Shown one piece after another: positions 3,550 through 44,665 of a stretch of 64,000 nucleotides of DNA (position 1 is its first letter; each line of letters opens with the position of its first letter). The translations under genes were made by a program, and so were the position numbers. The DNA is from Pyrinomonadaceae bacterium (lineage in GTDB: Bacteria; Acidobacteriota; Blastocatellia; Pyrinomonadales; Pyrinomonadaceae): assembly GCA_030841085.1 (NCBI GenBank), contig JAVEDP010000024.1, positions 62,001 through 126,000 on the forward strand, given 5' to 3'. The notes under the pieces were generated by a model. It searched no databases. It was not told where the DNA came from and was given only the letters and a program-made list of their open reading frames with translations.

Positions 3550-5093
3550 TCGGTTCCCCGCGAGTATGGGTTTTCAACATATGCGCAGCCGTCTGATAAA
3601 CGGCGAAGCATTCCCAGACTTCCCAGTCGCTGTTCCAGCCGACGAGAGTTGGCTTGGAAAACCTTCTTATCAAATTCATCTCTGTCTAGAATGCGCTCCG
3701 CCTCTCTGTCACCGAAGACAAATCCATACCGTTCGTAAAGTCGTTCAAGAAACTCATTCAACTCCATTCTTCGGTTAACATTTGCCAGCAGAAGAGCTTT
3801 GAACAAAGCATCCGTCGGAGCGTACCGAAACTTATTTGTTCCCCTCTTAGATACCAAACCCGCCTCTCGTCCAAAACTGCGATGCACATTTGCGACGTGT
3901 TGCCTGTGGCCGTTCAGCGCTTGAACCTTCAACTCGCTTAACATGGCTTGGGCATCGTTCGGACCATCATAATCATCTGCTGCCTCACCCCAGCGAACTC
4001 GATCTTGCAGAATCTGGCGACATCTGACAAAGGACCCGGGATCGATCATTGCGGCCTGCCACTCCTCTGAATCCGCGATTTGATCTATATATGTTTCAAC
4101 CGCCCTCGCAGGCAGCAAATTATTCTCGCTGAAACTGGCAGAAGAAAGTTCACGTACGAGCGTTTTCTTAGGTGCCACAACCTCACACACTAGATACAGC
4201 TTCTTCGATGAGTTACTCCACTCGCGCGCTATATTCAGCTGATAGAGCACGATATGCAGCGCGGCTAAAGTGACGAGATAAGGCCAGCCGTCGAACCCCG
4301 GCATTGATAGATTGAAAACACTCAGCCAATCTTCTCCCAATCGATCAAACGTTGGATGAGTCTTATAAGGAAGATAGCTCTTTCCCCGGAGTGAAGGGTC
4401 CTCTTCATCGTCGGGTTGCATCAATGCAAGCAGTTCATTCCATGGATTCTTACCGGCGAACATGGCGGAAACGTGTGTCCTTAGAGCCGCATTAGATGAG
4501 GAACGGCAAAGCATGAGGTAAAGCATCTCGCCAGTCCTTCCAAAGTTGATGTAGTCCCGAGTCGCTGTTCCTGAATTAGAGATTTTAATGTCTTCATACA
4601 GGGCCTTTGGTCCAAACGGAAAAATGAATCGCGACGTCCAGCGCTTGTTTGCACTTCCCTCGACATTTGCGCTCCGGATCATCCCGACGAGCGATACGAA
4701 TTGCCTGAATGAATGAAAACGCGTTCGTAGATAGGAAAAGTCGGTCGTCGACACGCCTTGTGCTTTGTCGCGCATCCATCTAAGCCATTCTTCCCAAGCG
4801 GAAGCGCTGTCTGGAAAGAACTCGGCGATACGATCGAGTTCTTGGTTGTTAAAGAGAATGTTACGGAGGTACATTCTCTTGTAAGGAGTAAAGTTCGACA
4901 GACCAAACTCGCTACCCTCGTCCAACAGAGCACCATGGCGAAACGACGACTCCGCTACAGTCAAGAACTCCAAGAATAACAACCACGCGGAACCTGCGTC
5001 CCAAAGACGATGACCCCAAATTTGTTCATCGATCCAAGGTGAAATGCTTAGGACATTGTCTGAAGGTGGAGGAACCACGATGGACTGGTCCAT
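3546..5093 (-). CDS. sspG: SspG-like component of the phosphorothioation restriction complex
   Basis: This is a 515-residue soluble protein with no signal peptide or membrane segment. It is tightly coupled at both ends: its ATG shares TAATG with the stop of the sspF-like gene, and its TGA overlaps the next ATG. The N-terminal half is rich in aromatic and hydrophobic helices. The C-terminal third looks like a winged-helix, DNA-binding type of fold, from about residue 420 (NVNRRMELNEFLERLYERYGF) to the end. No catalytic motif is visible. The product is named by position, as the middle gene of the SspFGH or DndFGH restriction trio. The sequence alone does not tell what it binds. Confidence 0.6.
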   Translation of the reverse strand: MDQSIVVPPPSDNVLSISPWIDEQIWGHRLWDAGSAWLLFLEFLTVAESSFRHGALLDEGSEFGLSNFTPYKRMYLRNILFNNQELDRIAEFFPDSASAWEEWLRWMRDKAQGVSTTDFSYLRTRFHSFRQFVSLVGMIRSANVEGSANKRWTSRFIFPFGPKALYEDIKISNSGTATRDYINFGRTGEMLYLMLCRSSSNAALRTHVSAMFAGKNPWNELLALMQPDDEEDPSLRGKSYLPYKTHPTFDRLGEDWLSVFNLSMPGFDGWPYLVTLAALHIVLYQLNIAREWSNSSKKLYLVCEVVAPKKTLVRELSSASFSENNLLPARAVETYIDQIADSEEWQAAMIDPGSFVRCRQILQDRVRWGEAADDYDGPNDAQAMLSELKVQALNGHRQHVANVHRSFGREAGLVSKRGTNKFRYAPTDALFKALLLANVNRRMELNEFLERLYERYGFVFGDREAERILDRDEFDKKVFQANSRRLEQRLGSLGMLRRLSDGCAYVENPYSRGTE

Positions 5094-6952: not shown

Positions 6953-7024
6953 TTTCTGAGGTTGGCACCGGTGGACTCCTGGATAAATGTTCGAACTTCA
7001 ACGAACATGGATAAAACATTAGCA

Positions 7025-7828
7025 TCAGAGCTGGCAGATTAGGCAGCCCTCTCGTTCTTCCTCTTCGTCCTCTAAACCACCAAGAATGTGGACCAAGCTG
7101 GTTGAACTTTTGCGGTCGCGTTCCCGATTCTTTTCCCAATTTCTCTTAATTTCCTCGATGCGTTCGGGTTGCTCAAGCTCTTCCAAGGACTCTTCGCCGT
7201 TCCAAAAGAACGCATTGCCGTTCTTTTTATTTGCGTATTCATAGGCTTTCGCCTTTTCGAACAGATCGGGGTAGGTTTCCTTTAATCTGACCCATTCAAT
7301 CTTCTGCTGATAAAAGCAAAAGTAACACCCGGAACGAGTCCGACCCCAGCTCATGAACGTTGGAAGCCCTAGGCCCGCCTCTTCTAAAATGCGAAAAATA
7401 TCTGCTCGAACCAAGCCATCCTCTCGAAAGGGATACACCGCAGTGATATTAGGCTTACTGCTTATATAACCAGCCCGTTCTTCATCTGCTCGGATTCCGA
7501 CATAATTAATCACCGGATCATCGCCGATATAATCTTCGAACGGCTTGAGTTTCAACATTCTCGTGCACCATCGGCGATGATTTGAAGGGATCATTCCGCC
7601 ATAGACATCGAGCCACTTATCGAAGCTGTAATCGGGACGCGTCTTATGAATTTCTTTCCCAAGATGCGCTTCGAGACGACTCAAATACTCGTAGGTTTCA
7701 GGTAGTTCCTTATCTGTGTCATGAAAGATGTATTCCATTTCAGGAACACGATCTCTCATATATACCGCGAGCGCTGCGCTGTCCTTACCGCCTGACAAAC
7801 TCAGGACGTGACGAACTGGCTTTGTCAC
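7025..7828 (-). CDS. sspD: SspD, DndC-like PP-loop ATP pyrophosphatase / PAPS-reductase family sulfur-transfer enzyme
   Basis: The start is taken as GTG at 7828, because AGAGGAGG lies six bases upstream; an upstream in-frame start has no such site. That gives 267 residues and a 44-base overlap with the end of sspC. The PP-loop SGGKDS is at residues 12-17, as in PAPS reductases and DndC. Cysteines likely to hold a cluster or carry sulfur are C88 (RRWCTRM), the pair in SGCYFCF near residues 160-166, and the C-terminal pair CLIC at 262-265. In DndC/SspD systems the enzyme adenylates the DNA backbone and helps replace a non-bridging oxygen by sulfur. Together with SspB and SspC it forms the single-strand phosphorothioation machinery. 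No cysteine desulfurase (SspA) lies nearby. Confidence 0.9.
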   Translation of the reverse strand: MTKPVRHVLSLSGGKDSAALAVYMRDRVPEMEYIFHDTDKELPETYEYLSRLEAHLGKEIHKTRPDYSFDKWLDVYGGMIPSNHRRWCTRMLKLKPFEDYIGDDPVINYVGIRADEERAGYISSKPNITAVYPFREDGLVRADIFRILEEAGLGLPTFMSWGRTRSGCYFCFYQQKIEWVRLKETYPDLFEKAKAYEYANKKNGNAFFWNGEESLEELEQPERIEEIKRNWEKNRERDRKSSTSLVHILGGLEDEEEEREGCLICQL

Positions 7829-10800
7829 TGTTTCCCTCCTCTGACGATAGGACCTTCCAGAATGCCCTGGCTGTTGCCGCAAGCCCTATACGCCTCTGTT
7901 CTCCCAATAAGGATGTGATTTGGGCTTCGATTGCTGCGACTTCAACTTCTTCACTCTTCGAAACGCAAATGACGTTGTCTACCTCCGAGCCGTCGGATTT
8001 GGTAATAGTAACTCGAACGGCGGATTCGTCGTTCGTTCGCTTCGCGCGTCCGAATCCGACGCTCTCGACGCGCCTAAATCTCGATATTAACTGACTAAGC
8101 TCGTGTACGAATTTGTCCTCATCAGCATCAACCCATTTCGAGGGCGGCACCGAGGCTACCAGACTCCCCAAAGACTCCAACCATTCAGCATCTGGCAAAT
8201 TGCGATCAACCAAGCGCATACAAAAAGCCTTCAATCGCGGTTCGTTGACCGCTATAAGCACATCCGCTGACCGGCTAGACATAGTGCTCCGCGCATCTTG
8301 GAAACTGTCCGCCAGATCGAAACCTGTCGTTAGTACCCGTTTCATTCGTTCTAGCAACTGAGGATGAGCCATTCTCAGCTCGTTCAGTATCGCTTTCAGG
8401 GACTCAACGAACTTCATTCCCTCTTTGCGCGTCAAGCGCCCTTTCGCACGAAAGGAGCCAAATCCACAAGCTTCTGGCAATTCTCTGAACAGTAGGGCCG
8501 ATGGTTCCCGAGCGTTCAGCAAAACGGAGCGCACTGCAACAGCAAACTCCGAGAGCCTTCTAGTCTTATGAGTGTAAGGTGGCAACCGGGCAGCAAAGAT
8601 ACATAAAGGTCGCACCACATCCAATAGGTCGATCCTTCGTTCATTTGAACGCTCCAGATCTAAAACCTCAAAAAGCCGATCGAATAATTCCAATCGTACA
8701 CCTGCTACCTTGCAATACTGGATCTCGAAGAGTTCAGGCACCTTCGTCAGTCGAAGCAGGTCCAAGCCGGCCATCTCCCTCATGAAAGCACCGGAGTCAT
8801 AAAACGCAACGAACTGCTCGTTCAGGACGGCGAATATCGCGAGGAGCATGGGGCTAATCCCATCTCTTACCCCGTACGGCGGTTTTCTTAACTCTGCAAA
8901 GATTTCTGAAACTCGAACACGGCTGTCGCGGTTCTTCTCAAGGAGGACCTTGATGCGATGCAGTGCCGGTCGCACTCCGCAGACATCTTGGCGTGCGCTC
9001 GGCTCTACTAGCGTTGGCCTCCCATCGACCTCTCGGTGTATGCACCCCTTTTGCAAAATGGATAAATAGATTGACATCTCCGGTGGTTTCTTTGCGGAAT
9101 CCATTCCCAGCAAAGGCTTGGACGAGGAACTGAAAATGCTTTCTATGAGCCGCGTTCGAGCCGCTGCGGCGGCGGAGCTCAAAGCACGACGATTGACAAG
9201 TTCGTTTTGAATCCTCGGAGCCTGTGCATAGACTTCATCGCAAACCGTAGATAGAGATGAAAGCAGTTCACGTCCGTTCCTGACCCGTAATATTTTGCCT
9301 TGTCTATACCAAACTAACTCCGTTCTTCCACTGAACTGTTGAAGGCCAACGAATGCCTGGACCCGCTCCTCCAGCATTCGCCTTGCGGCAGATATTTGCC
9401 GAGAGACTTCTTCGAAGGCAAATGAGTCATTGTTAAGCTCGGGAGTGCTGTTCCTGACCATTTCCCATCGTTGAACCTTCTCAACCAACTTGGCGAGTAT
9501 GTTAAGAGGATTCGGAATCGCGAAGAGGATGGCGGGCTGATCATCCAACACACCCGATGTTGCGAATCGGAGCGCTGCCTTCCGTTCCTCTTCAGTCTCG
9601 CACAGAGCAACAACGACCAGTCCGTCTGAAGTTTCATAGTCAAATTTAAGGCTTTCAGCGAGCTCGTTAACGGGCGAGAATCGAACTTCAAAATGGCGAA
9701 GGTTGCCAGTCTCGATATAATGTCTTCTTGCAACTAGGGGACGCGTCTCTAAATAAGAATGAATAAGGGAAGAGACTTGTTTGGGCTCAGGCCCAAGGGC
9801 TCGTGCCGCACTTGCATAGGCTCGTTCAAGATCGACGCTCGTATGTGGCCAGAGGCAAAACCCGCCTGAGGCTCCGCGATTGTAAAGGACCCTTTTATCT
9901 TTCTGTAGTTTCTTGATCGCTTCGCTGACCGTGTGTGCTTCGCGAGAATCCTTTCCACAAACCGCGACGAGTAACGCATCCTTGGTTGCCAAGAGATTTC
10001 CGGAATCCAACAGGTTTAACAGCCCCACTGTTTTGAGAATTCGTAGATCTAGGTCGTTTTGAGTTCGAAAGCTTTCGATCATTGAATCGATCTCATTCCA
10101 ATGGCTCCTATAACTCTGAACGCTCAGACGATGACCGAACGCGGACTTTGCATAGTCGTAGAGATTGTGAATGCGATAGAACCGTTCTCGATTAGCAGTC
10201 TGTTGCGCGAAGTCCTGCAGGCCGAAAGGCTCCGCTCCGAGAAGGAAACTAAATAACGAGCGTTCGTTTTGGCCAAATCGGCTGAAAAGTTTAACCAAGA
10301 CCGGAACTATTGACGGATGCAACGGATAGATTCTTTCGCCGTTATCTAACAGGTTCTTCTTTCCAACTAGCGCTCCGTACCAACCCAACTCAACAGCGGC
10401 AGCCATATCACGATGAGCTTGCGTTCCGATGGTTTTCGGAAGTTGGGCGACGTTGACTCTCAGGGCATCTCCAACCAGCCCCGCTGTCTGTTCAAGGGGC
10501 TGGTTAAAAATGAGTTGCTCAAAACGTCCTGCTACCTTTTCCCATTCCTTTTGTGCCGACTCCGTCAGGTTGTCGGCGTAAGCATTGAAGCCTTGATGTA
10601 GCAGCCCGATAAGAAATAGCGGAGTCTTGCCACTTCTTGACGCGAACTCAGCAAGTCGTTGAAGTAGGTAAACATCCTGCCTCTCAGGATGATGCGCAGC
10701 ATACTCCAAGAACTTTCCTAACTCATCGACGATTAACAGAAGACCATCAGCTTTCTTAGCAGCGCTAACGTAGACGTTCGCATCCGCGAGTAGCTGAACT

Positions 10801-11294
10801 ACTGTCTCATCCGAAACTGCTCCCTCTCCACCAGCGATCTGGGATCGAATCTTATCAATGATTGCCGGCGTTCTCCCACGCTCGCAAGTATTGAGCAGGT
10901 CACGATGCAGCGAACGCAATAGCGCGACAGACAATGATTCACGCGAGCCGGTCACCAGGATTGGCAAAAGCTGTGGTTTCGCCACGCCAACCTTCTTATA
11001 GTTAATGACATGGCGCAGATGAGGCGGTAGCTGCGCACTCCTCTCACTGAAGAGATGAGCGATCAGCAAAGCGAAGGACGACTTTCCCGATCCGAAATCA
11101 CCAGTAATACGCCATGCGCGCTGGCCGGACTTCGGCCCAAGGCCACTAGCTAGCCGCTCGACATACGACTGACATTCAGGAGTCAAGACGTATCCCTTGA
11201 GCGCTTTCGTGTCCAAGAAATCTCGTTCGAGGTGAGCCGAACGGAGAAAACGGCTTTCGACGTTAAGCAAGTCTGCGATCAGAGTATCGGTCAT
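7785..11294 (-). CDS. sspC: SspC, large P-loop ATPase of the phosphorothioation module
   Basis: This 1169-residue protein has a Walker A motif, GDFGSGKSS, near residue 66 and a Walker B strand, LLLIVDELGKFLEYA, near residue 185. These fit the large ATPases of Ssp and BREX (PglY/BrxC-like) operons. It lies between sspB, whose stop is seven bases upstream, and sspD, which it overlaps. SspC is required for single-strand phosphorothioation in characterised systems, together with SspB and SspD. A BREX BrxC role was considered, but the operon has no PglX, PglZ or BrxL in view, and the DUF4007 and PAPS-reductase neighbours fit Ssp better. The long C-terminal part beyond about residue 500 has no motif I recognise. 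Confidence 0.8.
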   Translation of the reverse strand: MTDTLIADLLNVESRFLRSAHLERDFLDTKALKGYVLTPECQSYVERLASGLGPKSGQRAWRITGDFGSGKSSFALLIAHLFSERSAQLPPHLRHVINYKKVGVAKPQLLPILVTGSRESLSVALLRSLHRDLLNTCERGRTPAIIDKIRSQIAGGEGAVSDETVVQLLADANVYVSAAKKADGLLLIVDELGKFLEYAAHHPERQDVYLLQRLAEFASRSGKTPLFLIGLLHQGFNAYADNLTESAQKEWEKVAGRFEQLIFNQPLEQTAGLVGDALRVNVAQLPKTIGTQAHRDMAAAVELGWYGALVGKKNLLDNGERIYPLHPSIVPVLVKLFSRFGQNERSLFSFLLGAEPFGLQDFAQQTANRERFYRIHNLYDYAKSAFGHRLSVQSYRSHWNEIDSMIESFRTQNDLDLRILKTVGLLNLLDSGNLLATKDALLVAVCGKDSREAHTVSEAIKKLQKDKRVLYNRGASGGFCLWPHTSVDLERAYASAARALGPEPKQVSSLIHSYLETRPLVARRHYIETGNLRHFEVRFSPVNELAESLKFDYETSDGLVVVALCETEEERKAALRFATSGVLDDQPAILFAIPNPLNILAKLVEKVQRWEMVRNSTPELNNDSFAFEEVSRQISAARRMLEERVQAFVGLQQFSGRTELVWYRQGKILRVRNGRELLSSLSTVCDEVYAQAPRIQNELVNRRALSSAAAAARTRLIESIFSSSSKPLLGMDSAKKPPEMSIYLSILQKGCIHREVDGRPTLVEPSARQDVCGVRPALHRIKVLLEKNRDSRVRVSEIFAELRKPPYGVRDGISPMLLAIFAVLNEQFVAFYDSGAFMREMAGLDLLRLTKVPELFEIQYCKVAGVRLELFDRLFEVLDLERSNERRIDLLDVVRPLCIFAARLPPYTHKTRRLSEFAVAVRSVLLNAREPSALLFRELPEACGFGSFRAKGRLTRKEGMKFVESLKAILNELRMAHPQLLERMKRVLTTGFDLADSFQDARSTMSSRSADVLIAVNEPRLKAFCMRLVDRNLPDAEWLESLGSLVASVPPSKWVDADEDKFVHELSQLISRFRRVESVGFGRAKRTNDESAVRVTITKSDGSEVDNVICVSKSEEVEVAAIEAQITSLLGEQRRIGLAATARAFWKVLSSEEGNSDKASSSRPEFVRR

Positions 11295-11301
11295 TTGAGC
11301 T

Positions 11302-12222
11302 TCACACCTGGTAAACGGCCTCCAAACACTGCCGGTCTGAACGACTTGGATCGTCAGTTCGGGTTACCTCCTGCAGCGCTGCGGATTCCTTGTAGGAAAA
11401 CATCCCATGGGAATCATCCTCTATTCGATCAAGTCGCTCTCGGAGATCCCACTCGGGCAACTTAAAGATCTGGCCAGGACTGCCATGCCCCACCGAGATA
11501 TCGCGGAACGTAATCTTTTTCTCGGTGGCCCGACGTGTAGTAGTCCAAAACTCGTTTAGACAAAACACGAAAAGCTCGGGCGTTATTTCGGATTTCGGCT
11601 CCCGTCTGAAAGCGTAAATCGGCTCGCGCCTGCCCCCCCCGAAGTCCCGTTCTCCTACCCTCTGAATTAATTCGAGTTCGACCAAGGGACAATCAAGATT
11701 GTCTTCGAGGATCTCGCCTTTTCTACTTCGTGTAGGCACATAAGTGTGGAGAAAGGTGTCGAAGTGCTGTTCCAATGTAACCGTTGAAAGTTTGCGTTCC
11801 AATCGTTTGGCTTCCTGCTGAAAAGCTCGCAATGCAGATGTCCTACCGATTTCCTGATGACGCCACTTATTAAGGAGGTAATCCCAAGCAAATAATGGTT
11901 CAGAGACCTGTGTTGAGAGTTTCCAATGAATCAACCAAAGGGTACGCTTGTCTTCCAGAAACGGATCAAAGCCCCCTTGTTTCATTAGAGCTTCTCCAAA
12001 ATCTGTGATGGAGTAACCGCCATCTTTCAAGGCTGAGGCTATTCCGGTCGTTTGAACCCAGAATCTGATGGCTCGCACCATGTTCTTCCCAACACCCATA
12101 GCCACGATCGCTTCTTCCTCATTTCCAAAAATCCGTGGGTTGGCAGTAAGCGAGCGATATGCCTTGGGGAGCCAAGCATAACGACAGGGAAATGTTTCAT
12201 GACCTGAAAATCTGTAATTCAT
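11302..12222 (-). CDS. sspB: SspB, DUF4007 family DNA-nicking subunit of phosphorothioation
   Basis: The product is about 306 residues from ATG 12222; a TTG two codons upstream is possible. The N-terminus MNYRFSGHETFPCRYAWLPK and the overall layout are typical of the DUF4007 family, whose characterised member SspB makes the single-strand nick at the modification site. It is the first gene of a minus-strand operon continuing into sspC seven bases later. No clear Shine-Dalgarno sequence precedes the start. The family identity is strong; the nicking role is known from the family and not from residues I can point to. Confidence 0.85.
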   Translation of the reverse strand: MNYRFSGHETFPCRYAWLPKAYRSLTANPRIFGNEEEAIVAMGVGKNMVRAIRFWVQTTGIASALKDGGYSITDFGEALMKQGGFDPFLEDKRTLWLIHWKLSTQVSEPLFAWDYLLNKWRHQEIGRTSALRAFQQEAKRLERKLSTVTLEQHFDTFLHTYVPTRSRKGEILEDNLDCPLVELELIQRVGERDFGGGRREPIYAFRREPKSEITPELFVFCLNEFWTTTRRATEKKITFRDISVGHGSPGQIFKLPEWDLRERLDRIEDDSHGMFSYKESAALQEVTRTDDPSRSDRQCLEAVYQV

Positions 12223-12258
12223 AGTCAATTGATGCGCGATGACCAGCTAAATTTTGCC

Positions 12259-12320
12259 AAAGCGCTATATCCTGAAGGCAAAATGCCTAAGGCCGCAATA
12301 CCTTGTGCTAGAAAGCGCTA
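12259..12320. promoter_or_regulatory. Two identical AAAGCGCTA sites upstream of the ssp operon
   Basis: The 9-base word AAAGCGCTA occurs at 12259-12267 and 12312-12320, in the 238-base gap between the sspB start and the antitoxin gene. Each contains the palindrome AGCGCT. Two equal sites 53 bases apart just upstream of the operon suggest a binding site for a regulator, perhaps the nearby HigA-like protein, but no promoter hexamers stand out. Confidence 0.3.
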
Positions 12321-12460
12321 AGATTATCACCATTAAGCGGCGCGCGCCAGATAAGCTAGATCTAGGGGACCGGGCTCGTTTCGGAAGTCCTATTGTGTAC
12401 TAAGACACAGACAGCAGAATGTCCACTGATCGTATGGCTTTTGGAGCATTCTCTATTGCC

Positions 12461-12781
12461 TCACTGCGATTCTACCTCGGCAATGCCAGAGAGTACGACT
12501 GGATCTCGATCAGGAAATTCAGCAACTAGCGACAAGTTGCCGCCCATGGCCTCGACGCTCTTTCGCAATGTGGAAAGCAAAAGGTCGCTGCGCTTCTCAA
12601 GCCGGGAAACGCCATCCTGACTAATACCGAGAACCTTAGCCATCCGCACTTGGGTAAGTTTGCGAGCCCGCCGGAGTTCCTGCAACGTCATTTCTTCAGC
12701 GATCAAACCGTCAGCACGGGCCTCGATCTTCTTGCGACGCGCGGAACCTATTCTCTTCATTTTCTGGTTGAGAGTCTTCAC
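12461..12781 (-). CDS. higA: HigA-like antitoxin with XRE helix-turn-helix
   Basis: This is a 106-residue protein starting at GTG, two bases after the toxin stop. The helix-turn-helix lies about residues 32-63 (LQELRRARKLTQVRMAKVLGI, then SQDGVSRLEKR), followed by a short C-terminal segment (LVAEFPDRDPVVL) common in antitoxins of the HigA2 kind. It would neutralise the adjoining RelE-type toxin and repress the pair by binding the palindrome upstream of the toxin gene. The toxin-first gene order is typical of HigBA. Confidence 0.85.
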   Translation of the reverse strand: MKTLNQKMKRIGSARRKKIEARADGLIAEEMTLQELRRARKLTQVRMAKVLGISQDGVSRLEKRSDLLLSTLRKSVEAMGGNLSLVAEFPDRDPVVLSGIAEVESQ

Positions 12782-12783
12782 AG

Positions 12784-13146
12784 TTAATTCTTCCTTTTCT
12801 TCAAGAGCGCTAGATGCCCGTCGAACCTCTTATCGGCCTTGGCTATTAACTGCCGATAAAAACGCTTTTCACTCCCGCCTGACTTGTCCCCCGCGACTAG
12901 AAGGATAGCTTTGCGCTTCGGGTCGAAAGCAAAGGCAACGCGCCACACGCCATCATCAGCATCGAATCTCAGCTCCTTCATGTTCGCGTGGCGGGAGCCT
13001 TTCAGGGTATCGACCCTGGGCCTCCCGAGTTGCGGACCAAACTGTTCGAGCAATCTGGCGTGGGCCAGCATTTCGTCCTGCACCGTTCCTGACAGGGCGT
13101 CAAATTCTGAGTCGAACTTGTCATGAAACGATACTACCCACTTCAC
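12784..13146 (-). CDS. higB: HigB/RelE-family toxin (Gp49-like)
   Basis: The protein has 120 residues from a GTG start. The segment MKELRFDADDGVWRVAFAFD, followed by RKAILLVAGDKSG and a basic C-terminal helix, is the usual core of HigB/Gp49-like RelE-superfamily toxins, which cut mRNA on the ribosome. It is followed two bases later by the antitoxin. A 16-base palindrome lies 27 bases upstream of the start. The pair could help hold the element in the cell, as it lies between the defence operon and the conjugation genes. Confidence 0.87.
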   Translation of the reverse strand: MKWVVSFHDKFDSEFDALSGTVQDEMLAHARLLEQFGPQLGRPRVDTLKGSRHANMKELRFDADDGVWRVAFAFDPKRKAILLVAGDKSGGSEKRFYRQLIAKADKRFDGHLALLKKRKN

Positions 13147-13172
13147 TTTCAGAGTATGTACCGAAGAACATT

Positions 13173-13188
13173 ATGTAGTCAACTACAT
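13173..13188. promoter_or_regulatory. Palindromic operator upstream of higBA
   Basis: ATGTAGTCAACTACAT is a perfect inverted repeat of seven bases around a CA centre, ending 27 bases before the toxin start. Its place and symmetry fit the autoregulatory site of the HigA-like repressor. Confidence 0.6.
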
Positions 13189-13984
13189 GTTGGCTCGCCA
13201 ACCGGTTGATCTTTCCTACCGCTCATGGCGGGCGTAGCTTCTCTATTCCCACTTTTGGCCCTGTGGTCAATCCCGCTTCTCGGAGGTACATTCGGACTGC
13301 ATTACTTTTATGTCCTATGCAAACCCCCTTGCATCTTTCGACCGCGTTTTCAGATAGGAATTAATGGAAAAAATCCAACTTCTTCGGCGGATCGCGGGAA
13401 CGTTTTTCGCTACTTAAGCATCTAATCTTCCCCGACAACAAAATACATTCTTGGTTGCGCATCTTCGCCGCTGAAGAGGTCGCGACAATGCCGGATTCTT
13501 GCAACGCTTTCAAGCCGCAGCCCTGCACCTTAGACATCGCAGATGGTAGTTGGCTTCGTAAAGAGTCTGCCCAGCTCAAAGAAGAAACGGCACTAAGTGT
13601 AAAGCGCAGCGTTAAATAATTGTCATAGATTTCGTGGTTCGGTTTCGAAAGCTAGACTCTCCCAAGTCTCCTCGCTCTCGTAGAGGCCCAGAACCTCTGA
13701 CCTTTCAAGTTAAGCCTGGCAGGGCTTCCCTGATCGGAAGTTAAGGCCGAAGGCCATCACAGTGGTTAAGCTTGTATGGATAACCATCTGCACCCGTATC
13801 TTCGCGCGACCGATAAGTCCACGGCGCAACATCGCCTCGACAACCTTCTGCTGGTCAGTGGTGCCCAATTTTTTTACTCCGGAAGTTCCGTGCAGTTCTC
13901 CCGTCTTAAGGAGAATAGAAGATCGTCAACTATAGGTTCTTGTGTGCCGACCAGCACTCATATACACGTGCAACGGGAGGGATT
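13189..13984. other. Long intergenic region without a supported gene
   Basis: About 800 bases lie between the divergent higBA and sigma-54-type activator genes. Short frames on both strands here have neither ribosome sites nor recognisable products. The only clear signal is the Shine-Dalgarno sequence GGGAGGG just before the activator start at 13985. It may hold decayed sequence. Confidence 0.4.
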
Positions 13985-15301
13985 ATGAGTCGGAGACACT
14001 CGGCTCTTGTCGCAGAAGCGAAACAGCACGACGTTTCGCCGCCGGCGTGGAAGGACGAAACCGCGCGGCGAGTGCGGGAGTATCGAACTCGGCAAAGACA
14101 AACAGAAGAAAGCGCTCGTCAGATTAAGGATCTCTTCGCTGATCAGTCGAGTCAACAGGCGCGAATAATGCGCGCAGAAATTGAACGCGTAGCGCGACGG
14201 TCCTTCAATATTTTGATCACGGGAGAAACCGGCACCGGCAAGACTTATGCGGCACGAGAAATCCACCGACGATCAGCGCGAGCCAATAATCCGTTCTTGG
14301 AACTCAACTGCGCCAATTTGCCGGAACAGTTAGTGGAAGCCGAACTCTTCGGCTATCGCAAGGGCGCCTTCACTGGAGCGGACCGCGATCACACGGGACT
14401 CTTCGAAGAAGCTGACGGCGGGGTTCTCTTTCTCGATGAAATCGGCGACATCGCGCTGACAGTCCAAAACAAACTCCTAAGAGCAATTGAAGAAAAGCAG
14501 ATCAAACGGCTTGGCACGAACCGTCACGTATTCTGTGATGTGCAGATTATCGCGGCGACGTCGCGGAATCTCGCCAGCATGACTCAGTCTCGTGAATTCC
14601 GTGAGGACCTCCACTGCCGACTTGCTGTATTGACGATAGAGACTGCACCGCTTAGAGAGCGCCGCGAAGACATTCCCGCAATGATCGCTTTTTACTTGCG
14701 TGAAGCTGCTGCAATCACTAACCGAACCAATCAGTGTGCTCCTTATTGGATTGAGGAAGACGCCGCAGCATTGCTGTGTCAGTTCGACTATCCGGGGAAC
14801 ATTCGAGCTTTGCGGAATCTGATTTATGAGCTGACGAGCTACGTCAAAGAAAGCGAGCCAATCTCAATTGAGTTGGTGCAGTTCGTTTTGGCTAAGCTTA
14901 ACTCGCGCGGAAGCAATCCGATCACGAACCGAAATGGTACGCGACAAGCAACTTCTGCGCCGAGCAATGAGCTAGCATCAGCGGGCAACATTGCCAATAT
15001 GGATGAAGCCACAAAGCACGCCCATTTGCGGTCCATCGCACATGAAGGTGACATTATCCTACCGCTCGAACTCTGTGTGCTGCGGAGTGGCGAAACCTTC
15101 AGACAATGGACCGCTCGGGCCAAGCGTTGTAGCATTGAAGCTGCGCGCCAAGCTACCGGCGGGACTATGCAAAGCGCAGCCGAACGATTGGGCCTTAGCC
15201 GTAACAGCTTGCTGGGGCATCTTCATCGAGCCAGACAAGCTCAGAATGAAACTCTCTTTGATTGGCGGCGTAAGTCTGACGGCGATTCGCCGGAGCGTTA
15301 G
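13985..15301 (+). CDS. Sigma-54-interacting AAA+ transcriptional activator with Fis-type HTH
   Basis: The ATG at 13985 follows GGGAGGG at five bases, giving 438 residues. Walker A, TGETGTGKTYAA, is near residues 78-89. The sigma-54 contact loop GAFTGA is near residue 127 and the Walker B strand GGVLFLDEIGD follows. A Fis-like helix-turn-helix (MQSAAERLGLSRNSLLGHL) lies near residues 396-414. There is no receiver or sensor domain, only about 55 residues of charged N-terminus, so control must come through a partner or expression level. It should help RNA polymerase with sigma-54 open promoters. It is one of two such activators on the element, with the HEPN cargo genes downstream on the same strand. 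Confidence 0.88.
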   Translation: MSRRHSALVAEAKQHDVSPPAWKDETARRVREYRTRQRQTEESARQIKDLFADQSSQQARIMRAEIERVARRSFNILITGETGTGKTYAAREIHRRSARANNPFLELNCANLPEQLVEAELFGYRKGAFTGADRDHTGLFEEADGGVLFLDEIGDIALTVQNKLLRAIEEKQIKRLGTNRHVFCDVQIIAATSRNLASMTQSREFREDLHCRLAVLTIETAPLRERREDIPAMIAFYLREAAAITNRTNQCAPYWIEEDAAALLCQFDYPGNIRALRNLIYELTSYVKESEPISIELVQFVLAKLNSRGSNPITNRNGTRQATSAPSNELASAGNIANMDEATKHAHLRSIAHEGDIILPLELCVLRSGETFRQWTARAKRCSIEAARQATGGTMQSAAERLGLSRNSLLGHLHRARQAQNETLFDWRRKSDGDSPER

Positions 15302-15520
15302 ATACCATTCCTGAGTTAGAAGTATTGATTCAGGAGGAGCGCATAACTTTAGTGCTCACGAAAAGTGCGACTCGCGAAGGCAAAGGCGATACTAAGATAT
15401 TAAATCGAGGCGATTGTGGTGTAATGAGCACGGGCCGGTGCGCTCTGAAGTGCAGAATCAGTTTTTATACGGAATCGGTGTTAGTAGAAATATAGAAGCG
15501 ACTTTATAGAGGCGGTATTT

Positions 15521-16297
15521 ATGATCAAGAGAGCGCAGCCACTCTGGGCTTCTGGTCCGGGAGAAATTCTCAAGCATGGTCTTGATCTACTTAAGAGTGA
15601 TACAGATACGAAGCGCCGCCTAGCGATGATAAGCATTGATAATGCGGTTGAGTTAATGATGAAAATATTTTTGGGTCTTCCTCAACGGGTTACGGGCTTG
15701 AAGATTACCAGGAAAGAGTACCAAGAATTCTCAGAGAGCTTTCCTGCATTGCTTGACGCACTAGAAAATCATGCTGCAGATAAGCTTGACGGAATTGATT
15801 TGGGAGAGATCGAATGGTTCCATCGCCTCCGCAATGAGCTTTATCATCAGGGTAACGGTTTGACTGTGGAGCGAGAGAAAGTTGAGGTCTACGCTGAACT
15901 TGCCAACGTGCTTTTCTACAACCTATTTGGGTTCCGGCTGGTTGAGTCTGAAAGTAACAGGACTGAACTTTTAGGGAATTTCATGGTTGCGTGGGTTAAT
16001 TTTGAAAAGGCCCTTTTGAGTCTAGCTGCGCCTAATCAAACGTCCGTGAGTGGTCGCCCATTGATGCCGCTAGACGCCGCCCGGCTTTTGCATCGTAGGG
16101 GTCTCATTTTGCAGTCTGAGATGGCGGAGATTGATCAATTGCGTAGGCTTCGCAATGAAATTGTACATGGCAAATTAGACTATCAGTCGGCTTTGAAGCC
16201 AGAAATCGTTAAGAGACTTGAAGCGTTAGGACCAGAGCTCTTGAAGCGGGAGGAGCTTAATGCACGGCTACACGGCAAAGATAGTCTCGATGGATAG
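15521..16297 (+). CDS. Protein with two HEPN-like motifs, possible RNase of defence type
   Basis: This 258-residue protein is preceded by AGAGGCGG. It contains two copies of the R-x4-H motif that marks HEPN domains: RNELYH at residues 104-109 and RNEIVH at 211-216, each in a helical context (HRLRNELYHQG, LRRLRNEIVHG). HEPN proteins are often toxins or RNases in phage defence and toxin-antitoxin pairs. No nucleotidyltransferase antitoxin is adjacent. A second HEPN protein follows downstream. Function is inferred only from the motif, and non-catalytic HEPN proteins exist. Confidence 0.65.
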   Translation: MIKRAQPLWASGPGEILKHGLDLLKSDTDTKRRLAMISIDNAVELMMKIFLGLPQRVTGLKITRKEYQEFSESFPALLDALENHAADKLDGIDLGEIEWFHRLRNELYHQGNGLTVEREKVEVYAELANVLFYNLFGFRLVESESNRTELLGNFMVAWVNFEKALLSLAAPNQTSVSGRPLMPLDAARLLHRRGLILQSEMAEIDQLRRLRNEIVHGKLDYQSALKPEIVKRLEALGPELLKREELNARLHGKDSLDG

Positions 16298-16315
16298 GAT
16301 GCGCGTTGTCGACAC

Positions 16316-16422
16316 GCGCAACATAAAAAACCATTGCGGCTGACGGCGCGGTAGCATGTTTCTCCAGTGGCCTTTCATTTCTGCTCGGACGCCGAATAGC
16401 GCAGCAAAGGCCAGCGTTGGGT
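16316..16422 (+). repeat. Weak attC-like site
   Basis: A region between the two HEPN genes ends in GTTGGGT (16416-16422), which fits the attC R' consensus, 37 bases before the next start. The left box GCGCAAC (16316-16322) departs from consensus and the arms pair only partly. It is listed because better attC-like sites follow the next two genes. Confidence 0.25.
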
Positions 16423-16459
16423 TCCTCTTTGTTACTGACCGCCATGTGATGGAGCACTA

Positions 16460-17191
16460 ATGAAATCGCGAGGTCCTGAGGATTATTTTGCTGGCGCCGT
16501 TCCTGCTGGGGTGATCTTTGACATGCAGGTTTATGATATGCGTAGTGTCGCCCGCATGCGTCCGCCCGAGGGCGATCTTCGCGATACTCCTTTCGCTGAG
16601 TTGTGCCTGATCGGGCTCGTTGCGTATTTCGAGGGGTTCTGCAAGAACCATTTCGCATCGATTATCAACATTTGTCCACAATTGCTTCGCGAATTGCAAA
16701 CGCGGGGTCGGGACATCTCGGTAAGCGCCTTTCACCTTCTGGATGCAGGCGACCCCATCCTTCCGAAACTGGGTTATCTTGTCGCTGAGGGTTTCGACTT
16801 CGGGACCGCCAAAGCTATCAATGGTATGTACTGTGATCTGCTGAGAGTGACTCCTTTTTCAAAAGACGAGATGGCGCGATTTGCTGAAATCCTTGACGAC
16901 CGGAATTTGCTAGTTCACCACGGAGGCATTTTTGGACCCCGATACGCTCGTGAACGCTTCATCAAGCGGGAGACTGGCTTGTCGCGTCTCTTTCTTGATT
17001 CGCTGGTTGTTACGACGGACCAGTTGGAGGCCGCCGCCACATTCCTTCATTCGATTTCCATGAAGGTTCGGACGGCCACCGAAAGCGCATTGAGTTCTTA
17101 CGTTCGCGAGCGCCGCTTGAAGCTCTCTCGTGGCGCACGAGAGGCGGTCGAATCACTCGGGTGGGCCGATTCGCATTCCCCAGCCGATTAG
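16460..17191 (+). CDS. HEPN-domain protein (RiboL-PSP/MAE_28990-like)
   Basis: The product has 243 residues, with GGAG six bases before the ATG. The HEPN motif lies at residues 148-153 in LDDRNLLVHHGG, and the layout with an early helix (LIGLVAYFEGFCKNHF) resembles the HEPN families often annotated as RiboL-PSP or MAE_28990. It lies alone on the plus strand, bounded by an attC-like site on the downstream side and a weaker one upstream, like a gene cassette. A role as RNA-targeting defence protein is inferred, and no partner gene is seen. Confidence 0.65.
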   Translation: MKSRGPEDYFAGAVPAGVIFDMQVYDMRSVARMRPPEGDLRDTPFAELCLIGLVAYFEGFCKNHFASIINICPQLLRELQTRGRDISVSAFHLLDAGDPILPKLGYLVAEGFDFGTAKAINGMYCDLLRVTPFSKDEMARFAEILDDRNLLVHHGGIFGPRYARERFIKRETGLSRLFLDSLVVTTDQLEAAATFLHSISMKVRTATESALSSYVRERRLKLSRGAREAVESLGWADSHSPAD

Positions 17192-17209
17192 TTGTTGCTC
17201 AGGACAGGG

Positions 17210-17311
17210 ACCCAACAAAGCGTTGAACGCGAGTGGCGGGAGCGTGTTTCGCAAGTTGATTCGTCCGGCGATGCTTGAATTCGCGCCGCCGCGTCAACTC
17301 CGACGTTAGCT
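17210..17311 (+). repeat. attC-like recombination site
   Basis: ACCCAAC (17210-17216) and GTTAGCT (17305-17311) bound a 102-base imperfect palindrome. The inner arms AAAGCGTTGAACGCG and CGCGTCAACTCCGACG pair with unmatched bases, as in integron attC sites. It sits between a stop codon and the next start, where a cassette junction would be. The R' box departs at one base from GTTRRRY. Confidence 0.5.
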
Positions 17312-17332
17312 GGACCTCCAACCGAAGGCATT

Positions 17333-17788
17333 ATGAGCTTTTCTGAAACCCTGCTTGTCAACGCGCTATCTCTCCTTATAGGTGGGCTGCTCGGCTACGT
17401 CTTCGCGGAGTTGCAGCAATTCTATGGGAAGCGGAGGGAGAAGCGCCAAGCCGCGGCTCTAATACGTCTAGAAACCGAGATGAACCTATTATGGCTGGAC
17501 GACGTGATCAAAACCAAAGTCTATTTCAGGGATGAGGCATTTTTGGAAATGAGAAAGAATGGCTTCCTGTCCTATCTGCCTAGACCCCTTCCCTTTCTCG
17601 TAGCAAGAACTTATGACAAGATGTATCAGGTTAACGACCTGTCAAAGCGCAGCCGTGACGGAGAACTAGTACCAGAAATAGAGGGAGAGATAGCAGAGCT
17701 TCGGAGGCGACTGGAAACAGTCAATGCCGAAATAGACAACTATTTCCCAAGCATCAGTCGCAATTACGGCCCACCACGTTCTAGCTAA
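17333..17788 (+). CDS. Small single-pass membrane protein, coiled-coil tail
   Basis: This 151-residue protein has AAGG five bases before the ATG. One membrane segment lies at about residues 6-26 (TLLVNALSLLIGGLLGYVFA), followed by a charged cytoplasmic part with heptad-like helices (EIEGEIAELRRRLETVNAEID). It begins 21 bases after one attC-like site and is followed by another, so it looks like a cassette gene. I do not recognise a family. Confidence 0.6.
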   Translation: MSFSETLLVNALSLLIGGLLGYVFAELQQFYGKRREKRQAAALIRLETEMNLLWLDDVIKTKVYFRDEAFLEMRKNGFLSYLPRPLPFLVARTYDKMYQVNDLSKRSRDGELVPEIEGEIAELRRRLETVNAEIDNYFPSISRNYGPPRSS

Positions 17789-17872
17789 CCAGCGATGAGA
17801 ATTTCGACCTTGTCTTAATCCGCTCCGGGGTTTGATGGCTTAATATACCCGGTGATCCCACCAACACGTGCC

Positions 17873-17965
17873 AGCTAACAACGGCATGCACCCGAAACCC
17901 CGTCACGAAATCTCCCATGCACGTTGAATGTGGAGGCGGGTGCTGAACCACTGGCATTGTTGGTG
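17873..17965 (+). repeat. attC-like recombination site
   Basis: The left box AGCTAAC (17873-17879) is the exact complement of the R' box of the preceding site. The right box is GTTGGTG (17959-17965). Between them, AACAACGGCATGCACCCG pairs with CGGGTGC and TGGCATTGTT with several unpaired bases. This is the third such site in 1.7 kb. Confidence 0.45.
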
Positions 17966-17986
17966 TCGTCCTTGGAGCTGGTGGTC

Positions 17987-18156
17987 CTAGCAGGCTGCTG
18001 AAAAAATAGTGATAGTTACTGGTTTCGTCTTCATGAAGACTTTTGCTTATCGATGATGTGCGATCTTGTTTCTGCGATTGATCCCTTGAGTGGCTCTTTG
18101 GCCACTGTTTCGCCGTTGTACCAAGTGGCCAGGTTACTTTTTCAGCAGCCTGCTAG
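17987..18156. mobile_element. MITE-like element, 162 bp, with CTAG target duplications
   Basis: CAGGCTGCTGAAAAA at 17991-18005 is repeated inverted at 18138-18152, and both ends are flanked by CTAG (17987-17990, 18153-18156). No transposase frame is present, so this is a non-autonomous or internally deleted insertion sequence. The interior has short palindromes such as GTCTTCATGAAGAC. It lies between the last attC-like site and the end of the relaxase gene. Confidence 0.75.
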
Positions 18157-18163
18157 GGCTACG

Positions 18164-21100
18164 CTACAGCAGTGCAGCCAACGCTTCTGAGCCTGCTGCC
18201 TCCGTATCAGCGGCCACTCCTGCTCCCATTCCTGTCTCATTGGTGGCTATGGATTCAGCTGAAACTTTGTCCAGCGTTCGCCGGGCGTCCTCAAGATGAT
18301 CGTCAGTTGGTGATTCTTGGTGCGCCATACCTAAACCAATTCCTTGTACCGCCTCTTGTGCGGGATTGCTGATACTTACAATACCGCCTCCGCTGGTGGG
18401 CGAAACGGCTATCGCTTCGAACCCTGTTCCAAGGATGGCGACTGTTGGTTGCGCGACGAAGGTCTCAATTTCCGTGACCTCGTTGAACTTCGTTTGAGGC
18501 ATGACTAGGTTCAATGTCTGAAGGTTCTCGCGGTAACTATCTCCGGTCTCGCCAGCTCCCTGGGCGAATTGCTGTAGGAGATCGCGATCGTGCACCAAGT
18601 CCGTGTGATGTTGGTCTAACGCTTGTTGCACGGCAGCGATCTCTAACCGTTGGCTTATCGAGAAGTAGCTGGCTACCTTCTCTCCAAAAGTGTTTGGCGC
18701 AAGCTCATTCAGTGTTGCCGTCTTCTCGCTACCATCAACGCCTTTGAATAAGACGGGGAAGAACTCCCGGTTTTCGACAAAGCTTCGTATGCGCTCGCCT
18801 GCGCTACGCAATGATGCTTTCGCTGAGTCCTCTACGCTAGCCGCGCGCGCTGCCACCTTCTCCAAACCATCCCGCGCGTCACCATAATGCTGTGCCAAGT
18901 AATTCTGCGCCGCGTAAAGCATCTTGGAATCACGAAGCTTTGTGGCGTTCGCTTCCAACTGATCTACTTCCGTCGCATTGAACTCGGTTTGCGGAATCCC
19001 CTCACTTTGGTTGACGTGTAAATCAACCTCCACGGCTAATGCACTATTGAGCGTCCGGGACAGTTGCCTCTTCTGCTCGACATTCTCTCGCAGCGCTTTC
19101 CGGCGCTCTTCGATGAAGTCAGTGACTCTTTCGCGAATTGGCTGGAGCTGTTTGATCTCTTCGCGCGACTGCTTGATGCGCACTTTCGCTTTTGCGGCTC
19201 TCTCTTTGTAGTCGCGGATGTCATAGAGTTTGATCGGGTTGTGGATTACGCCATATAACCTCATGCGGTAAGCAGAGACCGCCCGTTTGTTAAGGTCGAT
19301 CTCGCGCTCCTTGGTTCGCTGCTGCCGGTCCAAGGTAACAAGCGACCACTGCTCACCGTTGATCTCGAAATTGGCGAAGTGTCTCGACTTCTCGAAATCT
19401 TCCATCCGCTTTTCCGCAACCGCGACGTTGGACTCGGCTACGATCGCGCTGCCTTTGAGCCGCGCGATCGAGCAGGAGTCCCTGGCCGCTTGCCTTAGTT
19501 CACGCGGCTTCGAGCGCGCGATACTGCCTGGCTTGTCGAATGCCGGAGTACCTGTCTGCGATTCCTTCAAAGCTTCGAGCGCCATCTCCTTATCCTTCGG
19601 CCTGTTCAATGCGCCGCCGAGATCCACTGCGGAGTCTGTGTAAACGCGCGCGTCGAATCTGGCGCGCGAAATCGCAACGTAAGCCATCCGCTGATTTAGA
19701 AGGAGATCGGTTTCCGTCGTTTCGGCGTTGACTAAGACTCGATCCATCGTCTTGCCCTGCGCCGAATAGCTCGTCACTGCGTAGCCGTGATCCAGGTGCG
19801 GAAATTTCTCTGGATCGAAAGTGACGACGCGCTTTCCTGCCAACGCCACGGTCAACTTGCTGTCGGCGATTTGAGTGATCGTGCCCAACTCACTGTTCTT
19901 TACCTTCGCTTCTGCAAAGGGCGCGCGAAACTGGATTCTATCTCCCTCGGCAAACTGCCGCTTAGCCTCTTTGTAGACGGCGACCCCTGAGAGTCTTTCC
20001 GGGTTGTAAGTAATCTCTCGCCCGCTTTTAAGTCGAACCGTGATCGTGTTGTCGCTGTGATTGGCGCTGAGCACTTGTCCGTAGTCTCCAGGCTTAATCG
20101 CGTATAGTTTGCTGGCCTTGTTGTAGCGAATGATGTCTTCACCCGGCACATATGCGAGAGCAAAGGTGCGTTCGGCTCCGGTCATGTCCTGGCGAGTCGC
20201 GAGCACTTTCAGTTCATGATCGTCCTGGTTCACAACGCCTTGTTCTTGAAGCTGCCGATGGATGATCGAATTAATAGCCACACGCTCTTCGTTGGCGGGC
20301 GAGATTACCAGCGTCTGTTTTGGATTACTCAGGAAGTCTTTAGCAATGGCCGTCAAGCGGTCTTCGTCGTCAGCAATCTCCGCGATTCGCCCTTGCTCGA
20401 AAAGCGTCGTAACGGCTGCCAGCACGTCCTTTTTCGAGAGTTGTTCGACTGGTATCTTCAAGTCTGACTTCTGTCGCAAAATCTCATCCAACGTAGCAGT
20501 GAGCATCCCTGCTTTGACGAACTGTTCAAACGGCACGCCAGCTTCGACGGCCTGGTGCTGTGCCGTATCACCAACTAACAATAGGCGCGCCACTGGACCC
20601 GCTTTCTTGAAAAAGAGAAACATATTTCGAGTGTCCGACAGCGAGGATTCGTCCATCACGTAGAGAATCTTCTTTCCAATATCGGACTCCATCTGGGTGC
20701 TTGCCACAAACTTCTGCAAGGTCGACGTCTTTATCCCACTCTCAGCCAATAAGTCCGCTGCTGCTCCTGTCGGTGCGAACCCTTCTATCTCATAGCCCTG
20801 TCGCTCAGCTGCTTCTCTAAGGACAGCAAGCGCTGTGGTCTTACCTGTACCGGCGCGACCCTGCAAGCCTACGATCCGGTCGCGACTTTCAAGGAGCGTC
20901 GCTACCGCCTCACGTTGACTGTCATTGAGTGTGATACCCTGCCTCGCTGTGATCTCTTGGACTATTCGACCACCTCTTTCTGGCTCAAGAATCGGCTCCT
21001 GCGTTCCTCTTCCGGCAACCACTCGTTCGAGGTTGCTCCGCTCCATCGCCACGGTCTGCGAGGTCGTCAGCTCTTCCATGCTGCCGTTCCTCATCAACCG

Positions 21101-22285
21101 GATGAACTCACCACTCTCAATTCTTTCATTCAGCTCCTTAATCACCGCGTCGTAGGTTGTGAAGCTCATATTTCTTCTGAGCGCGTCCACTATCACACGG
21201 CGCTTGTCTACCACCGCCTCTCGCTCCCCAGCGTTCATTCTCGCGAACGTCACGGCTGCTTGCGCCCGAGATTTAATCTCGTCGTCATCGAGGATAAGAG
21301 ACCCGCGCTCCTGTGCGGATTGCGCAATGCGCGCCGCTTGCTCGCCGAAGCGGGCGTCCATCTCCAAGTGGCGCGAGCGCATATCTTGTCGGTCATATTG
21401 TTTACTCATGCGGTCTGTCTTCGCGGCCGCCTGGCGCAAGCCTGCGCCATCCGCGACGTTGATGCCCAGCTTGGCCAGACGCTCTTTCATCTCGGCGGCT
21501 TCTTGATCGATTTCCTGGCGGCGTGGACTGCTGGCCGCCAGATACTCCTTAGTGAACCCATTAATCTCCGGTGCGCCGGTGCGCGCATCCACCGTTATTT
21601 CGTAGCCAAGCTTTTGCAGTTCCGCAGCCAAGACCGTGCGATAAATCGCCGTCGCGTACTGCTGGCTCCGGAATAACTCGAGTGGTTGGATCGGCTTGAT
21701 ACGGTCGTCTTCAGTTTGCGTCAGATTGAAGATAACTACATGCGTGTGAAGTTGGGGCGCTGCGTAGCCGGTGGCGCGATCAGGACGCGCCGCGTCGTGC
21801 TTGAACTTGGCGGCGATTATCTTGCCCGTAGTCTCTGCCGGATTGTTGCCTCCGATGCGCGCTTGGGCGTATTTCTCCAACTCCCGAAGAGCCGCATTCA
21901 CGCTCCGGTCATGGGCTTCCATGATCCGCTCATCACCGCCCACCAATGTTGCCAGGGAGACACTCTTGGGCGCTGAGAAGGTCGCATCCCAACCCGCACG
22001 ATGCTCGCTGGACTCAACCATTTCGCCGTAAGCGTTTTCGTACGTTTTCGACGCGACGTGTTTGACAAGCTGCAAGCCCGTGCGCGGGTCCTGACCTTCA
22101 CAGAGACGCTCGAAAGGCTCCTGCCTTACTTCACCTTCGAGTTTCCAAGCGTCGGCTTGTTTGCCGAACCACTCGCCCTTAACGTTCTCGTCTTCGGTGT
22201 AGTAGCTCTCCTGTGTATTAGTGTATTCAGCTTGATAGTAATCTTTGGCCTGCCCTGCGCCCAGGGACTTGCTCATGGTCATCAT
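18164..22285 (-). CDS. MobF-family conjugative relaxase-helicase (TrwC/TraI-like)
   Basis: This 1373-residue protein has an N-terminal TrwC relaxase domain with paired tyrosines near the start (DYY at 15-17, SYY at 27-29) and the HUH metal site HTH at residues 180-182 (QLHTHVVIFN). A P-loop GRAGTGKTTAL lies near residue 470 and further helicase motifs follow (YVMDESSLSD, and HGYAVTSYSAQGKTMDRV). It would nick oriT, stay bound to the 5' end and unwind the strand for transfer. The long C-terminal tail is helical and poorly conserved. Its stop lies only eight bases from the MITE copy of CTAG, so the last residues may have been changed by that insertion. The coupling-protein genes lie just upstream. 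Confidence 0.93.
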   Translation of the reverse strand: MMTMSKSLGAGQAKDYYQAEYTNTQESYYTEDENVKGEWFGKQADAWKLEGEVRQEPFERLCEGQDPRTGLQLVKHVASKTYENAYGEMVESSEHRAGWDATFSAPKSVSLATLVGGDERIMEAHDRSVNAALRELEKYAQARIGGNNPAETTGKIIAAKFKHDAARPDRATGYAAPQLHTHVVIFNLTQTEDDRIKPIQPLELFRSQQYATAIYRTVLAAELQKLGYEITVDARTGAPEINGFTKEYLAASSPRRQEIDQEAAEMKERLAKLGINVADGAGLRQAAAKTDRMSKQYDRQDMRSRHLEMDARFGEQAARIAQSAQERGSLILDDDEIKSRAQAAVTFARMNAGEREAVVDKRRVIVDALRRNMSFTTYDAVIKELNERIESGEFIRLMRNGSMEELTTSQTVAMERSNLERVVAGRGTQEPILEPERGGRIVQEITARQGITLNDSQREAVATLLESRDRIVGLQGRAGTGKTTALAVLREAAERQGYEIEGFAPTGAAADLLAESGIKTSTLQKFVASTQMESDIGKKILYVMDESSLSDTRNMFLFFKKAGPVARLLLVGDTAQHQAVEAGVPFEQFVKAGMLTATLDEILRQKSDLKIPVEQLSKKDVLAAVTTLFEQGRIAEIADDEDRLTAIAKDFLSNPKQTLVISPANEERVAINSIIHRQLQEQGVVNQDDHELKVLATRQDMTGAERTFALAYVPGEDIIRYNKASKLYAIKPGDYGQVLSANHSDNTITVRLKSGREITYNPERLSGVAVYKEAKRQFAEGDRIQFRAPFAEAKVKNSELGTITQIADSKLTVALAGKRVVTFDPEKFPHLDHGYAVTSYSAQGKTMDRVLVNAETTETDLLLNQRMAYVAISRARFDARVYTDSAVDLGGALNRPKDKEMALEALKESQTGTPAFDKPGSIARSKPRELRQAARDSCSIARLKGSAIVAESNVAVAEKRMEDFEKSRHFANFEINGEQWSLVTLDRQQRTKEREIDLNKRAVSAYRMRLYGVIHNPIKLYDIRDYKERAAKAKVRIKQSREEIKQLQPIRERVTDFIEERRKALRENVEQKRQLSRTLNSALAVEVDLHVNQSEGIPQTEFNATEVDQLEANATKLRDSKMLYAAQNYLAQHYGDARDGLEKVAARAASVEDSAKASLRSAGERIRSFVENREFFPVLFKGVDGSEKTATLNELAPNTFGEKVASYFSISQRLEIAAVQQALDQHHTDLVHDRDLLQQFAQGAGETGDSYRENLQTLNLVMPQTKFNEVTEIETFVAQPTVAILGTGFEAIAVSPTSGGGIVSISNPAQEAVQGIGLGMAHQESPTDDHLEDARRTLDKVSAESIATNETGMGAGVAADTEAAGSEALAALL

Positions 22286-44575: not shown

Positions 44576-44665
44576 CAATCTTTCTCCTGACCGGATGAAG
44601 TGTTGGTGTGGTGGGTCAGGGAGCGTTGACGCGCTCACCTGACCCTTTCGCTTGCACAACAGATT

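Follow-up and report, generated by a model that had tools for sequence, protein, structure and literature searches.

Evidence for a partly decayed, integrase-less cluster of integron cassettes carried by an ICE-like element in a Pyrinomonadaceae genome

In an integron, the R′ box that opens a cassette and the R″ box near its end are neighbours in the circular form of the cassette and remain complementary. Integron cassette clusters that have no integrase (CALINs) are reported on chromosomes and plasmids in the available portions of two papers (PMC9024848, PMC12444791); those of a third call them numerous in conjugative elements (PMC11389934), and a further one tabulates a CALIN in ICEPmiW2, an ICE, beside a complete class 1 integron (PMC13358208). 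Cassette genes with HEPN domains have been described, their products being proposed as dormancy-inducing RNases, and Acidobacteria is one of 11 taxa whose attC sites have been modelled, as the accessible sections of PMC3710099 and PMC8352920 state. The locus we describe here resembles the known CALINs in having at least two close attC sites, cassette genes on the same strand and no integrase nearby. It differs from them in lying on an ICE-like element of another phylum, in a genome where no integron integrase was found, in having no resistance gene among its three cassette genes, and in joining three attC families in three sites, two of which are decayed. The arrangement is real and its kind is known, CALINs in ICEs and HEPN cassettes being both already in print; within the portions of the literature available to us, we found no report of this particular element. 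Our reading, which we hold to be very probably correct, is that of an integrase-less integron cassette cluster (CALIN), partly decayed, carried as cargo by an integrative conjugative-type element of about 69 kb. This agrees with the initial annotation, which had proposed a possible integron cassette array inside an ICE.

The cluster lies in the window (the whole stretch of DNA that was analysed, 64,000 nucleotides) in a cargo slot at 15301-18164, between the genes of a sigma-54 activator and a MobF relaxase. The landmarks of the host element are as follows.

13940-15301, + strand: sigma-54 activator gene, left border of the slot (Pfam Sigma54_activat, E 7.6e-63)
17986-18157, no strand assigned: MITE-like insertion with terminal inverted repeats of ~20 bp, between the array and the relaxase gene
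18164-22285, - strand: MobF/TrwC relaxase-helicase gene, right border of the slot (Pfam TrwC, E 2.1e-77; NCBIfam MobF, 218 bits against a cut-off of 100)
56360-57604, - strand: tyrosine integrase gene, adjoining tRNA-Leu (Pfam Phage_integrase, E 2.8e-31)
57700-57784: tRNA-Leu gene (ARAGORN)

A search of the window and of 40 kb on its left side found the final 17 bp of the tRNA-Leu gene again, in the same orientation, at C22:50686-50702, which makes the element about 69 kb long. It also encodes a TrwB-type coupling protein, a lytic transglycosylase and a TraC/VirB4-like ATPase, the last with a weak match that falls below the cut-off (E 8.7e-12). This gene content, with its weak match for the T4SS ATPase, suggests that the element is ICE-like and would be able to transfer, and it is in this form that the placement inside an ICE is upheld. 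The MITE-like insertion lies a few bases from the relaxase stop codon and has copies at 88% in genome G043 and at 79% in G001 and G015. Further cargo of the element is a defence system of the DNA-phosphorothioate type, made up of homologues of SspB, SspC, SspD, SspF and SspG at 3546-12228 on the - strand (each with a best PADLOC E of 2.2e-113 or lower). A strawberry-notch-type helicase of 1515 aa (40112-44659, - strand) and a CHAT-domain protein (45840-49406, + strand) are possible defence cargo.

Within the slot, sites, cassettes and genes are arranged as follows, the features marked "by eye" having been recognised in that way.

15521-16297, + strand: gene of the first cassette, 258-aa protein with two HEPN-like motifs, RNELYH and RNEIVH (by eye)
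16317-16426, + strand: attC1, type B, decayed (R″ ACATAAA at 16321-16327, R′ GTTGGGT at 16416-16422)
16417-17305, + strand: cassette I (889 bp), beginning with TTGGGT and ending at the G of the following R′ box
16460-17191, + strand: gene of cassette I, 243-aa HEPN-type protein with the motif RNLLVH
17206-17315, + strand: attC2, type A, with intact stem (R″ ACCCAAC at 17210-17216, R′ GTTAGCT at 17305-17311)
17306-17945, + strand: cassette II, with damaged 3′ end
17333-17788, + strand: gene of cassette II, 151-aa orphan protein, hydrophobic over an N-terminal stretch (by eye)
17873-~17945, + strand: attC3, type C, 5′ half only (R″ AGCTAAC at 17873-17879)

To score these sites, we used models from which they had been left out. 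The repeats of the arrays read N4-AAC, spacer, stem, loop, stem, spacer, GTT-N4, and we based covariance models on 24 type-A and 13 type-B array sites, all outside the window; of the 42 array sites in alignment A1, 36 were used together with one extra, and six were left out as divergent. A first model (R1), whose automatic structure was wrong owing to a mixed alignment, gave way to R2 for type A and R3 for type B. Their structure follows the palindrome of the repeats themselves and has 18 pairs and, on the 5′ arm, two extrahelical bases. The model pairs are kept in 18-24 of the 24 type-A rows and in 10-13 of the 13 type-B rows. R2 gave attC2 a score of 100.6 bits (E 2.9e-31) and R3 gave attC1 50.2 bits (E 4.3e-12), so that covariance scoring, suggested with the initial annotation as a check, rejected neither site. 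Profiles held out in the same way, with the window excluded, reached E 1.9e-27 for attC2 and E 1.8e-15 for attC1. For comparison, the best profile match in 30 Markov-shuffled 64-kb windows scored 11.9 bits, and the runner-up of the type-A model in the window itself is a partial match at 38184-38235 (16 bits, E 0.024). The third site was missed by both R2 and R3, and was matched at 17870-17944 by a held-out type-C profile (E 7.8e-14) made from 27 sites of other genomes, with the window left out; these sites were collected through a search seeded with the window, which makes the score independent but not the discovery. The match ends at profile position 79 (~17945), and the L′ and R′ part diverges from type C. 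DNA of 17870-17945 recurs at 77-84% in at least eight other genomes of the family (118 searched), and the type-C family recurs within the arrays of other genomes.

The state of the three sites is unequal. In attC2 the four helices pair at 3/3, 4/4, 5/5 and 6/6 positions (G-T allowed), with two extrahelical A, while attC1 has a broken stem, with about 7 of the 18 model pairs non-standard and its R″ mutated to ACATAAA. Only attC2, the middle site, keeps an intact stem. Two good and one weak attC-like sites had been announced for this region: their coordinates are borne out by the held-out scores and the weak third site stands as a 5′ half, but attC1 is degenerate and cannot be counted as good. 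Rfam at its gathering threshold returned nothing in the window. When folded without constraints, the three window sites did no better than shuffled sequences, whether dinucleotide or mononucleotide: 99, 45 and 130 of 200 mononucleotide shuffles folded as well as the sites.

We then compared the boxes at the two ends of each cassette. Those of cassette I, GTTGGGT and ACCCAAC, are exact complements (7/7) and enclose a lone gene on the same strand, with its start codon 38 bases past the last base of R′; of the hairpins on its two sides, attC2 is paired throughout and attC1 is damaged. For cassette II, the exact complementarity of GTTAGCT and AGCTAAC noticed at the outset was confirmed, and the attC that closes it is incomplete, as the type-C match stops at ~17945. 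An extra AGCTAAC at 17783-17789, which overlaps the stop codon of the 151-aa gene, is probably coincidental. The same rule holds elsewhere in the source genome. Region 16316-17965 has 40 matches there, 39 of them elsewhere than in the window, in strand-consistent series on contigs C2, C41 and C43, all of them to the stretches of attC1 and attC2. In the arrays of this genome, 25 of 42 scorable neighbour pairs (the window's first pair being among the 42) match at 7/7, and the whole variable 4-mer is common to 26 of the 42; in 2000 shuffles the latter number averaged 4.6 and never exceeded 13. In five stretches taken from other genomes, 15 of 26 scorable pairs were at 7/7, with automatic box picking that misses some; one of these stretches, G039:C143, is a mixture of types A, B and C and has all five of its scorable pairs at 7/7.

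No integron integrase over the family cut-off (TIGR02249) was found in the source genome (98.9% complete), which extends to the whole genome what had been noted for the sequence alone. Among the genomes of the family, an integron integrase is found at E 1e-40 in 44 of 119, and over the cut-off in 35 of 119. The nearest tyrosine recombinase found to the array is the host element's own, 39 kb away. The locus therefore has no intI gene, as a complete integron would, and has what characterizes a CALIN: at least two attC sites close together with no integron integrase within reach. In the source genome there are at least 40 matches to R2 and at least 36 to R3 at E 0.001 (overlapping sets, with 150 first-look candidates scored per genome), all on contigs C2, C9, C22, C41 and C43. 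Types B and C adjoin integron integrases in genome G014 (L103, L104), and type A adjoins a partial one in G058 (L085). Compared with the chromosomal integrons of Acidobacteria, in which relatives carry integrases beside the same attC families, the source genome has only a stub by its C41 array. This stub, at L015:15493-15560 (G000:C41:~130492-130559), has 17 residues that share 82% identity with the G014 integrase in its N-terminal part (E 0.001). It lies on the opposite strand and diverges from the C41 array, whose outermost attC is ~300 bp away; it is probably a remnant of intI. With no integrase over the cut-off and two of its three sites damaged, the description of the locus as a stranded cluster is well founded.

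The genes are, as first described, short, on the same strand and separated by attC sites; there are three of them, all on the + strand. The 258-aa protein matches Pfam HEPN_RiboL-PSP below the cut-off (E 0.0014) and the 243-aa protein has a Pfam match at E 0.16; in both genes falling below the Pfam HEPN cut-offs, and in the rarity of their homologues, they differ from the known HEPN cassettes. Homologues of the 243-aa protein were found in three other genomes of 396 in the phylum (G267, G091, G119), and of the 258-aa protein in one (G166, 59% identical). All four aligned proteins have the motif RNLLVH unchanged, and it is of the Rx4-6H form of the HEPN superfamily. The two predicted HEPN-type proteins are probably RNA-cutting stress or defence proteins. 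Single-sequence structure modelling of the 243-aa protein reached a pLDDT of 37, too low to be used; searches of plasmids and viral contigs with this protein returned nothing, and no PDB entry matched better than E 0.54. In G267, a member of another family, the 243-aa homologue sits between the complementary boxes GTTAGGC and GCCTAAC. Behind it comes a short attC (R′ GTTAGCC), which in folding surpasses 498 of 500 mononucleotide shuffles. In G166, the stop codon of the 258-aa homologue runs into an attC (GCCTAAC..GTTAGAT) recognised by eye, which surpasses 499 of 500 such shuffles; at this locus the A, B and C profiles reach E 0.28 or worse, and no complementary start box was found there. Since other attC sites lie behind homologues of both HEPN-type genes in two distant genomes, we consider these to be genuine cassette genes. 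The initial annotation had allowed that its reading would fall if the same genes were always found together without these boundaries; the homologues of the 243-aa and 258-aa proteins occur apart, each followed by another attC. No attC was seen at the G091 and G119 loci, so the 243-aa gene family is not confined to cassettes. The 151-aa protein, which is probably membrane-anchored, has no homologue except itself in the 396 genomes of the phylum (E 1e-4) and none in plasmids (E 0.01).

Might the repeats be something other than attC sites, for example a dispersed palindromic repeat of a MITE or REP family that lies between genes by chance? They are imperfect palindromes of ~100 bp present in dozens of copies, a MITE-like element adjoins those of the window, and the unconstrained folding of the window sites is not exceptional. 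However, the repeats form strand-consistent arrays, mostly with one every ~0.5-1 kb, their aligned stem pairs are kept in most rows, the R′ and R″ boxes of neighbours are complementary far above shuffles, and in relatives they adjoin integron integrases. The box rule and the integrase neighbourhoods in the main refute the non-attC explanation, to which we give only a very slight chance.

How the cassettes reached the slot is a separate matter, on which related elements bear. Two siblings (L062 and L063), both in genome G043, have activator proteins 78% and 74% identical and relaxases 80% and 78% identical to those of the window element; scanning genome contigs with the activator protein returned three loci, namely the two contigs of the Acidobacteria MAG RYN_26 that carry these elements and one distant regulator. 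Each sibling has one attC in the same slot, beside ~11-12 kb of different cargo (covariance 54.8 and 80.1 bits). Loot et al. are said to have described, in 2024, an attG-type insertion of cassettes, which likewise puts cassettes away from the classical platform. By this route, cited in the accessible text of PMC12444791 and PMC12901181, an integrase would have inserted the cassettes at a non-classical genomic site, the slot itself being its target. It would fit the presence of attC in one slot with different cargo in the two siblings of one genome, and also the end of the backbone: blastn homology of 12869-15308 to L062 stops at a GTTAGAT box (15298-15304, + strand) at the stop codon of the sigma-54 activator, a possible candidate for the left edge of the cassette array. 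The clean joint that would be expected of such an insertion is not seen, however. GTTAGAT agrees with the R″ of attC1 at only 4/7 positions and does not pair with it, and no matching start box was found for the cassette of the 258-aa gene; at the matching place L062 has no GTT and L063 a partial match, and no empty slot was found for comparison. We therefore regard attG-type entry as unlikely. The alternative that part of a host array was brought in by transposition or recombination, without an integrase, is suggested by the two outer ends of the piece, both broken rather than clean, by the MITE-like element at its right end and by an IS21-like gene pair (labelled by eye) in the slot of L063. 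Against it, no transposase or flanking repeat was seen to bound the piece, and the three attC families also occur together, with intact box pairing, in the L093 array. This is quite conceivable, and we lean slightly against it.

Coming back to the CALIN carried by the ICE-like element, we propose that an integron integrase, acting on the folded single strand of attC, once moved the cassettes, either into the element directly or into an array subsequently acquired by the element, and that the element would then have ferried them between hosts. Two of the three attC sites would have decayed since, and cassettes I and II are therefore probably no longer cleanly excisable; the intact attC2 could still recombine in a host with an integrase. 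The cassette genes are probably read from an upstream promoter on the same strand. The locus offers a natural case of environmental cassettes, HEPN-type genes among them, on a conjugative-type element of a little-studied phylum and away from drug resistance. By such a route, cassette genes could move from one chromosomal integron to another; the locus also shows an array in the middle of its decay, and the siblings make the entry and exit of cassettes from an ICE testable by comparison.

Finally, we looked at related loci more widely. We scanned five loci that bear a relaxase gene; they come from 4 of the 13 other genomes with a match. The idea of a slot common to all related elements was rejected, as attC sites occur in three of these five loci and in the same slot only in the two of G043; L064 has two attC sites on the opposite side of the relaxase gene, and the covariance scan found none in L065 and L066. 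It seems to us rather improbable that the slot between activator and relaxase is a recurrent landing place for cassettes, with the element shuttling them between hosts of the phylum that have an integrase and hosts that do not. In L064 (113-4065), the two attC-like sites flank a gene for a 288-aa tyrosine recombinase, which starts ~140 bp from an attC, and a transposase-like gene. We weighed the recombinase as a candidate integron integrase and decided against it, as it is 33% identical to that of G014 and located beside the transposase-like gene; the two genes may rather resemble an IS91-type pair. In L063, the 3′ end of the activator gene is duplicated (2245-3573 and 12115-12672) around 8-9 kb of cargo that holds the IS21-like gene pair, as though the inserted DNA had come with a gene end of its own. 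Besides the main array of G043, on contig C52, contigs C8, C12, C49 and C55 of this genome carry single or few attC matches, which are possibly isolated cassette insertions.
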